Assembly (NCBI GenBank): GCA_021844275.1
Contig: JAKBTR010000082.1
Location: forward strand, 52,957 to 116,956
Reading direction: 5' to 3'
From: Nitrospirota bacterium
GTDB taxonomy: Bacteria > Nitrospirota_A > Leptospirillia > Leptospirillales > Leptospirillaceae
DNA length: 64,000 nucleotides
The notes under the pieces: generated by a model
What the model was told of the DNA's origin: nothing
The model's database searches: none
What the model saw: only the letters and a program-made list of their open reading frames with translations
Shown here: piece after piece, positions 55,996 to 58,667 of the stretch
Layout: every line of letters begins with the position of its first letter
How positions within the stretch are numbered: the first letter of the stretch is position 1
Position numbers and translations under genes: made by a program

Positions 55996-56934
55996 ATGAT
56001 CCGCGTGACAGGTCTCATGACCAACCGGGAGGTGATCGCCTCGCATGACAATGCTGTCGACAACCTCTACGACGTCGATCGGCAGATTTCTTCCGGAAAA
56101 CAGTTTGAAACTCCGGGCGATGCCCCCGGAAGGATGGGAGAATCTTTAAGGATCAACCGCAACCTGTCGGTTACCCGCAGGATCATTGAAAACGCCCGGG
56201 AAGGGGCGAATCGGCTGAAGCTGATGGAAAGCATCCTGGATCAGGTGGGAACGCTCCTGATCCGCGCGAAAGGGATGGCGATCCGCATGGCCAACGACAC
56301 GATGACGTCGGAGGACCGTCGGGTCGGTGCCCAGGAAATGAAACGGACACTTGAACAGATGGTCTCTCTGGCCAATACGAAGGCCGGAGAGCAGTACCTG
56401 TTTTCCGGGACGAACGTGACCCGTCCTCCGTTCCATTTCACGGATCCCCGACTGAATCCCGGCTCTGTCGTCTATGAAGGCAATCATCGGGAAGAGACGG
56501 TCCAGCAGGGATTTTCCCCGAGACAGCGCGAAGCGGGTCTGATGCCGGTGACAGAAGCCGGAGACCGGATCTTGGGAGACAGCGCGTCGGATCCTTTCGG
56601 AGACAAGCCCTTTCCGGTCATGCGTCGATTCCTGGTGGGCCTTCTGGCGAACAACCAGCCTGAAATCTCACGTTCCATCGACGAACTGGACAGGGCGATC
56701 CATTTTGTGACGGAGCGGGCGGCTGTTCTTGGTACCCGTGAGCGCGCCATCCGAACGACAGTCAACCGTCTCGAAAAATACACCATCAGCCAGAAAACCC
56801 TGAAAAGCCAGAACGAAGATGTCGATATTCCGAAAGCTGTATCCAAGCTGGCGCTGAACCAGAACTTTCTCGCCCTGTCGACGAAGGCTTCCCGGGACAT
56901 CCTCCGGAACACGCAGAACGTTCTTTTTTCCTGA
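55996..56934 (+). CDS. flgL: Flagellar hook-associated protein 3 FlgL
   Basis: A 312-residue flagellin-like FlgL. VTGLMTNREVIASHDNAVDNLYDVDRQISSGKQFETPGDAPGRMGESLRINRNL at the start (SSGK-PGDAP as in FlgL), AGEQYLFSGTNV in the middle and KAVSKLALNQNFLALSTKASRDI at the end. It is the second junction protein. GGAGGGATAACC precedes ATG 55996. csrA begins 25 bases after its stop. Confidence 0.94.
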   Translation: MIRVTGLMTNREVIASHDNAVDNLYDVDRQISSGKQFETPGDAPGRMGESLRINRNLSVTRRIIENAREGANRLKLMESILDQVGTLLIRAKGMAIRMANDTMTSEDRRVGAQEMKRTLEQMVSLANTKAGEQYLFSGTNVTRPPFHFTDPRLNPGSVVYEGNHREETVQQGFSPRQREAGLMPVTEAGDRILGDSASDPFGDKPFPVMRRFLVGLLANNQPEISRSIDELDRAIHFVTERAAVLGTRERAIRTTVNRLEKYTISQKTLKSQNEDVDIPKAVSKLALNQNFLALSTKASRDILRNTQNVLFS

Positions 56935-56959
56935 CACGCAGTGGACAAGGAGGTCTGAC

Positions 56960-57241
56960 ATTTTAATCCTGACGAGAAAAACCGGAGAAGGCATCAAGGT
57001 GGGCGACAATATCCGGATCGTCGTGCTCGAGGTCAAGGGGTCCCAGGTGCGGCTAGGGATCGAAGCCCCTGCCGACCTGTCCATCCACCGGGATGAGGTC
57101 TGGGAGAAAATCATGGAAGAGAACAGAAAAGCGACAACGGTGACGCCGGATCAGATGGAAATCCTTGTCCGGAAATTTTCTTCTTCGGGGACACTTCCCC
57201 GACAGAAGGACGAATCCGGAAACGGGGGGACGAAAAAGTGA
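56960..57241 (+). CDS. csrA: Carbon storage regulator CsrA with an apparent AUU start codon
   Basis: CsrA of 93 residues. Reading from ATT 56960 gives the invariant N-terminus LILTRKTGEGIKVGDNIRIVVLEVKGSQVRLGIEAP, i.e. residue 1 is the AUU codon. AAGGAGGT at 56947-56954 is a perfect Shine-Dalgarno five bases upstream. The next candidate, GTG 56999, would delete strand 1 and its RNA-binding residues. No ATG, GTG or TTG occurs in frame near the ribosome site. The tail (KIMEENRKATTVTPDQMEIL onwards) is longer than in the 61-residue E. coli protein. It binds GGA sites and represses translation of flagellin with FliW as antagonist. It overlaps fliW by four bases. Confidence 0.93.
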   Translation: MLILTRKTGEGIKVGDNIRIVVLEVKGSQVRLGIEAPADLSIHRDEVWEKIMEENRKATTVTPDQMEILVRKFSSSGTLPRQKDESGNGGTKK

Positions 57242-57669
57242 ACGACTTTCAGACGACCCGATTTGGGCGGATCCCCGTCGATCCCGAAAAGATCCTCCAT
57301 TTTCCCGAGGGTCTTCCGGGCTTTCCCCAGGCCTGCCGCTTCTATCTTTTGGAAACCGGAGACCCGAACATTTTTTACTGGCTGCAGTCTCTGGACGACC
57401 CGTCTCTCGCCTTTGTGGTCATGGATCCCGACAATCTGGTCACCGGATACCGGGAGAGGGTGAAGGCTTCTCTCAACGATCCGTTTTTCCAGGGGCGGGA
57501 CATTCTCTCTCTCGTGATCGTGACGATGCTTTCGGCCGACTCGATGACGGCCAACCTTCAAGGGCCGCTTGTTGTCCGGATGCCGGACAGGTCCGGGCGT
57601 CAGATGGTTCTTTTCGAAGAAGAAGACTGGTTGCGGTTCCCTCTGCTGGAAGAGCAGGAAAACCGTTAA
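57238..57669 (+). CDS. fliW: Flagellar assembly factor FliW
   Basis: A 143-residue FliW: FGRIPVDPEKILHFPEGLPGFPQACRFYLL at the start, FYWLQSLDDPSLAFVVMDP in the middle and TANLQGPLVVRM near the end. FliW binds CsrA and flagellin in turn, freeing flagellin mRNA when flagellin is exported. GTG 57238 overlaps csrA by four bases. The second flagellin gene follows after a 170-base leader. Confidence 0.95.
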   Translation: MNDFQTTRFGRIPVDPEKILHFPEGLPGFPQACRFYLLETGDPNIFYWLQSLDDPSLAFVVMDPDNLVTGYRERVKASLNDPFFQGRDILSLVIVTMLSADSMTANLQGPLVVRMPDRSGRQMVLFEEEDWLRFPLLEEQENR

Positions 57670-57694
57670 AGTTTTTAGACACGGGTTCCGATAA
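57667..57694 (+). promoter_or_regulatory. Sigma-28 promoter of fliC2
   Basis: TAAAGTTT (57667-57674) and TCCGATAA (57687-57694), one base longer spacing than the consensus (12 instead of 11). The start near 57701 gives a flagellin leader of about 140 bases. The -35 begins inside the fliW stop region. Confidence 0.75.
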
Positions 57695-57746
57695 GGAACC
57701 TGACGGAGGGCCTGACCCCGAGAGTCACCCCCCCGTGAAGCCAACC

Positions 57747-57777
57747 GGGCGCCAGGAAAGGAGGGTTCGGAGCGCTC
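57747..57777 (+). promoter_or_regulatory. Probable CsrA-binding hairpin in the fliC2 leader
   Basis: GGGCGC (57747-57752) can pair with GCGCTC (57772-57777, one G-U), with a loop carrying three GGA triplets (57755, 57760, 57769). A further GGAGGGA lies in the ribosome site at about 57829-57835. GGA in hairpin loops is the CsrA target, and csrA-fliW lie directly upstream. Confidence 0.55.
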
Positions 57778-57839
57778 CCCGAAACAGATTGCATTATCGG
57801 TCCACGGATTGGACCGGTACCAACACCAAGGAGGGAATC

Positions 57840-58667
57840 ATGAGTGGTTTGATCATCAATGACAATATTGCGTCGATGAACGCCCAGTACAACCTGAACC
57901 GGACGCAGGAAGCCCTGAACAAGCATATCGGTCGGCTTTCTTCCGGGTACAGGGTCAATTCGCCGGCAGACGATCCGGCCGGATATGCCATTTCCCAGCG
58001 GATGGGAGCTCAAATGATGAGCTACAACGCCGCCATCCGGAACGCCAACGACGGTGCCCATCTTCTTCAGACGGCCAACGGAGCTCTGCAGACCGACAAC
58101 ACAATTCTCCTCAAGATGCGCCAGCTGGCCATCCAGGCGGCCAACAGCACCTACTCCGAAAAGGATCTGAAGGTGTTGAACCAGGAGTACCAGCATCTCA
58201 ATTCCGAAGTCACCCGTATCGCAAAGGTCACCGACTTCAACGGAATGAGGCTCATGGACGGTTCCCACGGTGCCTTCAAGTTCCATGTCGGTATCTACAC
58301 CACCATCAACGATCGGTTGACGGTCAACATCGGAAAAATGGATTCCGGTACGCTGGGAATCCGTTCAACGAACATTTTGAACCGGCAAAACGCCAAAAAT
58401 GCGGTCGACAATCTTGATAAGGCTCTGGACCGGATCAACGCCGTCCAGGGTGGTATCGGCGCGATCCAGAACCGGATGGAATGGACGATCCGGAATCTGA
58501 CGAACGCGACAACGAACGTTCAGGCGTCCCGGGCGGGAATCAAGGATGTCAACTTTGCATCCGAGACAGCAGCCTTTACCAAAAGACAGATTCTGTCGCA
58601 ATCCGGAGCAGCGGTCTTGGCCCAGGCGAATCTTGTTCCTCAGGCTGCTATAAAACTGCTCCCTTAA
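57840..58667 (+). CDS. fliC2: Flagellin 2
   Basis: A 275-residue flagellin with NDNIASMNAQYNLNRTQEALNKHIGRLSSGYRVNSPADDPAGYAIS in the first 50 residues and DVNFASETAAFTKRQILSQSGAAVLAQANLVPQAAIKLLP at the end. Only about 95 residues separate the conserved parts, so it is a D0/D1 flagellin like flagellin 1, to which it is clearly paralogous. AAGGAGGGA precedes ATG 57840. The longer frame upstream is fliW shadow. It has its own sigma-28 promoter and a GGA-rich leader, unlike flagellin 1. Probably the main filament protein. Confidence 0.95.
   Translation: MSGLIINDNIASMNAQYNLNRTQEALNKHIGRLSSGYRVNSPADDPAGYAISQRMGAQMMSYNAAIRNANDGAHLLQTANGALQTDNTILLKMRQLAIQAANSTYSEKDLKVLNQEYQHLNSEVTRIAKVTDFNGMRLMDGSHGAFKFHVGIYTTINDRLTVNIGKMDSGTLGIRSTNILNRQNAKNAVDNLDKALDRINAVQGGIGAIQNRMEWTIRNLTNATTNVQASRAGIKDVNFASETAAFTKRQILSQSGAAVLAQANLVPQAAIKLLP

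Follow-up and report, generated by a model that had tools for sequence, protein, structure and literature searches.

The window analysed here, a stretch of 64,000 nucleotides from a Nitrospirota bacterium of the Leptospirillum family, carries csrA beside fliW among flagellar genes. The csrA gene, 93 codons plus TGA (56960..57241, plus strand, as are all window features given below; Pfam PF02599, E 2.2e-22), began with the isoleucine codon ATT at 56960..56962, an AUU start assigned from direct reading, family comparison, a tree and coding constraint. Ahead of it lay the Shine-Dalgarno sequence AAGGAGGT (56947..56954), with an 8-nt match, separated from the start codon by the five nucleotides CTGAC (56955-56959). 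Further upstream, a gene with Pfam flagellin N and C domains (55996..56934), putatively flgL by its position, ended in a TGA 25 nt 5′ of the csrA ATT. On the other side, fliW (57238..57669; Pfam PF02623, E 4.3e-27) started with a GTG overlapping the end of csrA by 4 nt (GTGA). It was followed by a flagellin gene (57840..58667), whose translation was recognised by eye in the open reading frame 57165-58667 and which would be the expected target of CsrA and FliW by comparison with hag of Bacillus subtilis. After the ATT, the csrA codons read TTA ATC CTG ACG AGA AAA ACC GGA GAA GGC ATC AAG GTG, the last being Val14 (56999..57001), from which some public predictions start a truncated protein of 80 residues. 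The original prediction held that csrA begins at ATT 56960, five bases after this ribosome site, and that no ATG, GTG or TTG stands in frame ahead of GTG 56999; rereading confirmed the former, while the open reading frame list and a trace of the frame back through 35 codons to a stop agreed on the latter. The CsrA domain PF02599 covered residues 2-52 of the ATT-started protein (79.2 bits versus a cut-off of 27), and the best PDB CsrA chains aligned with it from residue 2.

Conservation in related genomes extended this reading to the family. csrA was sought in 61 genomes around the nearest relative, 21 of which belonged to the same family; 19 of these carried the gene, and no match was found in the family genomes G006 and G020. 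The start codon was ATT in 16 of the 19, ATA in one (G009) and ATG in two (G011 and G018), and ATT was also found on a second csrA-bearing contig of G001. This contig of the nearest relative (L032, contig 6 of G001, 3344 bases) encoded a CsrA 94% identical to that of the window and represents either a duplicate or a co-assembled relative. Including the window and the second G001 copy, codon 1 was ATT in 18 of 21 family rows, ATA in 1, ATC in 0 and ATG in 2, the rows being related and not independent counts. Counting from this codon, Arg6, Arg44 and Asn55 fell at the expected numbers in 21 out of 21 rows. Arg6 and Arg44 belong to the RNA-binding surface of CsrA. Asn55 lies in its FliW contact, according to PMC13407953.

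The comparison of csrA 5′ ends among relatives suggested with the original prediction thus found ATT kept in 16 of 19 genomes, and the outcome named there as refuting, relatives with ATG, did occur in the two sister species G011 and G018; we read it as a later reversion. In a tree of CsrA plus FliW, these two were paired (support 100/98) inside a six-row clade (98/98) with four ATT rows, and because they are nested in an ATT genus a reversion to ATG is the fewest-changes reading. The family clade itself received 100/99, whereas the outgroup branches were long and their join weak, so that a single AUU origin is likewise a fewest-changes reading and not proof; it would comprise one gain at the family base, one reversion to ATG and one ATT-to-ATA change. 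The ATG of two species stood exactly at the ATT position, as would be expected of a start codon, and its presence in 2 of 19 genomes indicates that the weak start is not indispensable. Metagenome assemblies make up 15 of the 19 csrA-bearing family genomes, and all family genomes except the single-contig G004 (2,559,538 bases) are drafts; the ATT could in principle reflect a sequencing or assembly error, or else an RNA-level change to AUG could restore the start. Its occurrence in 16 separately assembled genomes, G004 among them, as well as in the window, makes a sequence error at this codon very unlikely, and we give this whole class of explanation almost no weight.

Pairwise codon differences, counted among ten chosen family rows, placed a sharp boundary at the ATT. 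Specifically, codons 2-4 showed 59 synonymous and 0 nonsynonymous differences, codons 2-13 showed 235 and 74, and codons 14-26 showed 220 and 165, while the eight codons before the ATT (-8 to -1) showed 14 synonymous and 295 nonsynonymous differences. Codons 2-7 each encoded one residue in 21 out of 21 rows, even though, for instance, the Arg at position 6 was written in five ways. In this comparison of sequences, the coding constraint on csrA begins at the ATT. These data bear on the proposal that translation starts upstream at another codon and that the ATT is an internal isoleucine. An in-frame ATG does lie five codons upstream in G003 (L011), and two fused database proteins, P0020 and P0028, have predicted starts upstream of the ATT position. 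The G003 codon, found in this one species, falls within the ribosome site, no upstream start is conserved in frame, and such starts would fall on or before the ribosome site. In-frame stops interrupt the upstream frame of several relatives, at codon -2, -6, -7 or -9 (only two codons before the ATT in L004 and L006), and amino-acid constraint is absent 5′ of the ATT. Codon usage also disagreed with an internal residue. Within codons 2-60 of the same 21 rows, isoleucine was written as ATC 131 times, ATT 15 times and ATA 3 times, and ATC would therefore be expected (131 of 149), yet it occurred at codon 1 in 0 of 21 rows. An upstream start is accordingly highly improbable.

Public annotation favours the opposite displacement, with translation starting downstream, at codon 3, codon 4 or GTG 56999 (codon 14), and yielding a CsrA that lacks its first strand. 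Of the unfused proteins in the database, the 12 nearest (P0002-P0013) all started after codon 1, at codon 3 (P0006), codon 4 (P0002, labelled Leptospirillum ferriphilum), codon 14 (80 aa, P0003 and others) or later. Codon 4 is CTG, a fairly common near-cognate start, but it sits 14 nt past the ribosome site. Codon 14 was Ile (ATC, ATT or ATA) in 18 out of 21 family rows, and the residues that a downstream start would leave untranslated changed synonymously only: codon 2 was Leu in 21 out of 21 (TTA, CTC, CTT or CTG) and codon 3 Ile in 21 out of 21 (ATC or ATT). Moreover, both ATG species have their ATG precisely at the ATT position. A start at GTG 56999, which by the original prediction would cost the first strand, is contradicted by the strict conservation of codons 2-7 under synonymous change, and a downstream start appears scarcely more probable than an upstream one. 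Among the fused database proteins, P0023 starts with MLILTRK and may come either from an ATG strain or from an ATT annotated as the start. The 12 unfused entries show that gene finders clip this CsrA, losing the first RNA-binding strand in part or whole. The three features looked for in a conserved AUU start, namely a constraint boundary, a ribosome site ahead and conservation between species, were all found at csrA. Altogether, the constraint boundary, the codon usage at position 1 and the ATG substitutes fix the start at 56960 against the database starts, and on these comparisons translation of csrA almost certainly begins at the AUU.

The ribosome site of the window is exceptional, since only 9 of 868 gene-like open reading frames had a Shine-Dalgarno match of at least 8 nt. 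By genus, the csrA match was 7-8 nt in four genera and 4-5 nt in genus g3, indicating that compensation of the AUU by a strong site is not general. CsrA proteins favour the ANGGAN hexaloop, and the minimum-energy fold of the window leader contained a candidate autoregulatory hairpin, UGGAC-AAGGAG-GUCUG (56942..56957), that presents the ribosome site in such a loop. Its energy (-4.2 kcal/mol, z +1.28) was no more stable than that of shuffled sequences. The AAGGAG hexaloop appeared in the best fold of 2 out of 10 leaders (the window and L002), in neither case exceeding shuffled sequences in stability; the remaining eight leaders folded differently. We therefore treat the hairpin as a candidate autoregulatory element at most, and csrA autorepression through the leader hexaloop as a guess.

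Outside the family, an isoleucine start proved rare. In the same phylum, 79 distinct csrA genes from other families started with ATG (65), TTG (8) or GTG (6), and none of the 79 with an Ile codon, the start codon being taken mechanically at the place of residue 1. These genes came from 89 loci after 10 duplicates were dropped; 72 were read directly and the 7 missed by the motif filter, read by coordinates, were all ATG. Their genomes belong to a larger draw of 198, of which 117 had a match; setting aside the 19 from the family leaves 98, and the 79 genes represent part of these. One other family of the phylum (f16) had TTG in 8 of 10 csrA genes, with one GTG and one ATG (L213-L222), which shows that weak csrA starts recur. 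A further scan, across 84,980 species genomes, looked for the CsrA N-terminus directly preceded by an Ile codon. Seventeen stretches matched, 15 of them from the Leptospirillum family (14 ATT and 1 ATA); these were genomes already in the family set, and hence confirm it and add no species. Of the two other matches, L071 was a planctomycete frame with a stop after 10 residues. The second, L073 (6343-6386, minus strand), was a gammaproteobacterial metagenome csrA with an apparent ATA start and an in-frame stop two codons upstream. Apart from its Ile codon, the search pattern accommodates no more than 34 of the 72 directly read genes, the ATT genomes G001 and G004 were not among the matches, and records near the window may be missing; the rarity of Ile starts holds within these limits. 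A plasmid search gave no match.

How an AUU might be read was considered from the initiation machinery. In the single-contig genome G004, 51 out of 51 tRNAs found had ordinary anticodons, three CAT and three GAT included, and the GAT genes were three tRNA-Ile genes, each beside a tRNA-Ala(TGC). A special AUU initiator tRNA was thereby ruled out in this genome, and, given this ordinary tRNA set, the standard initiator with its CAU anticodon is expected to decode the AUU through a mismatch at the third base. PMC5472188 states that IF3 represses noncanonical starts and discriminates against the AUU of infC; in E. coli and relatives, infC likewise carries AUU behind a good ribosome site. In vitro, raising IF3 to 1.5 uM lowered the yield of properly initiated product on an AUU codon with a CAU anticodon to 31.1% (PMC10158994). 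For infC of the Leptospirillum family, the motif resolved the 5′ end in 16 of 21 loci (L041-L055 and L061), and all 16 read ATT at the start. A CTG stood directly before this ATT in 15 of the 16, G001 having ATT without CTG, and the exact infC start is therefore ambiguous in these 15 loci. The infC product is IF3 itself and the gene is autoregulatory, whereas CsrA is not an initiation factor, so that any link of csrA to IF3 would be one-way.

The AUU of csrA did not appear to reflect a wider relaxation of start-codon choice. When 1,079,316 bases of family DNA were scanned with a required Shine-Dalgarno match of at least 5, 9 ATT candidates were returned against 537 open reading frames with canonical starts. 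Seven of the nine were csrA, the window and L099 being the same locus in near-identical strains, and the other two (L081 and L090) looked like noise. Lowering the match to at least 4 gave 14 ATT rows, of which csrA accounted for 6, and codons unable to start scored higher (CTC, 51), so this setting yields mostly noise. A stricter scan, over 864,000 bases, returned 5 ATT rows with csrA in 4 of the five, a total equalled or passed by codons unable to start, TCC (7) and GAC (6) among them. Several known ATT copies of csrA were missed at both match settings, from which the sensitivity of the scan must be low. A family-wide loosening was rejected on the finding that this insensitive scan returned no other credible ATT-start gene in 1.08 Mb.

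The antagonist gene is closely tied to csrA throughout the family. In 20 out of 21 rows, fliW overlapped or was fused with csrA and had ATG or GTG at the boundary, the 21st row being cut by a contig end, and it had its own purine-rich, ribosome-site-like stretch as judged by eye. In genus g3, 12 of the 13 genomes with csrA carried csrA and fliW as one continuous open reading frame of about 230 codons (L011, L013, L018-L023, L025, L026, L028 and L029); the locus of G016 is cut by a contig end, and the fused frame of G017 leaves its contig after 218 codons. The fused frames retained a purine-rich stretch and an ATG or GTG where fliW would begin, and in L026 both Pfam domains scored. Similar CsrA-FliW fusions were found in the database, and five (P0039, P0042, P0044, P0046 and P0056) had an identity of just 35-39%, for which reason this family is probably not the only one with the fusion. 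A literature search, outside which most subscription journals fell, gave no paper on a natural CsrA-FliW fusion, and none on an AUU start of csrA, among the matches listed.

This arrangement resembles sigR-rsrA of Streptomyces. There, a GTC start repressed by IF3 keeps SigR below its antagonist RsrA, as reported in PMC5472188. The likeness lies in a regulator with a noncanonical start behind a strong AGGAGGT-type site, a 4-nt stop/start overlap with the antagonist gene, an antagonist with its own ribosome site, conservation in one lineage and misannotation in databases, sigR and infC being commonly misannotated in Streptomyces (PMC5472188). Overlapping or fused genes, together with an antagonist having its own ribosome site and a canonical start, were likewise found at csrA-fliW. 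In contrast, the codon, the gene family and the phylum are different, and csrA-fliW is fused in one genus. The second comparison is with the CsrA-FliW-flagellin module of Bacillus subtilis, with which the locus shares the csrA-fliW neighbourhood among flagellar genes, Asn55 in 21 of 21 rows and an adjacent flagellin gene. The difference lies in the start codon, as csrA of B. subtilis starts with ATG. PMC6529632 describes the Hag-FliW-CsrA switch of that species as operating near 1:1:1, counted for CsrA dimer, FliW and Hag, and likens it to a toxin-antitoxin system with CsrA as the toxin; this stoichiometry does not demand a large FliW excess.

We propose that ordinary fMet-tRNA(CAU) initiates csrA at AUU in most of the family, helped by a ribosome site at the usual distance that is exceptionally strong in the window's genus and three others. 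As a poor start under IF3 discrimination, the AUU would allow CsrA to be made only at a low rate. Although fliW overlaps csrA, its own ribosome-site-like stretch and its GTG or ATG start could let FliW be made in excess, and the weak csrA start would thereby set the CsrA:FliW ratio of the flagellin-homeostasis switch. The CsrA dose, via IF3, could then follow the state of the initiation machinery. Sequence comparison is the basis for the AUU start, its conservation, the fliW arrangement and, for one complete genome, the lack of a dedicated AUU tRNA. Beyond that, we lean towards a CsrA output that is low relative to FliW and regard dependence of its initiation on IF3 as evenly balanced; a CsrA level that follows initiation-factor state is plausible from the analogy with infC and sigR. 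Taken as a whole, the account of an AUU-started, IF3-limited csrA kept scarce relative to FliW seems to us probable. The AUU might instead be real and merely tolerated, an ancestral ATG-to-ATT change kept without regulatory meaning. The codon has since become ATG once and ATA once, TTG or GTG starts occur in 14 of the 79 csrA genes elsewhere in the phylum, and the ribosome site is not strong in g3. Against this, five genera have kept the ATT when a single base change would restore ATG, even though codons 2-13 showed about as many synonymous differences as identities (235 versus 231 of 540 pairwise comparisons). In four genera the great strength of the ribosome site looks like co-adaptation, and the 1.08 Mb covered by the insensitive scan held no other credible ATT-start gene, so that tolerance without function is unlikely.

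Well-documented noncanonical starts in bacteria are few, comprising infC, pcnB and sigR (GTC), and a conserved AUU in csrA would extend control by start-codon choice to the gene of a global regulator. If the reading of a dosed csrA is true, start-codon quality sets the ratio of regulator to antagonist in two unrelated systems, sigR-rsrA and csrA-fliW. In g3, an AUU/AUG pair in one open reading frame would yield fused and free FliW in unequal amounts. For the Leptospirillum family, which we take to be an environmentally important acidophile lineage, we tentatively envisage a family-wide dosing device, possible though rather less than probable, in which IF3-limited CsrA is held below FliW and flagellin and other targets track initiation capacity, and in which one genus would make a rare AUU-started fusion together with abundant free FliW from the internal start.
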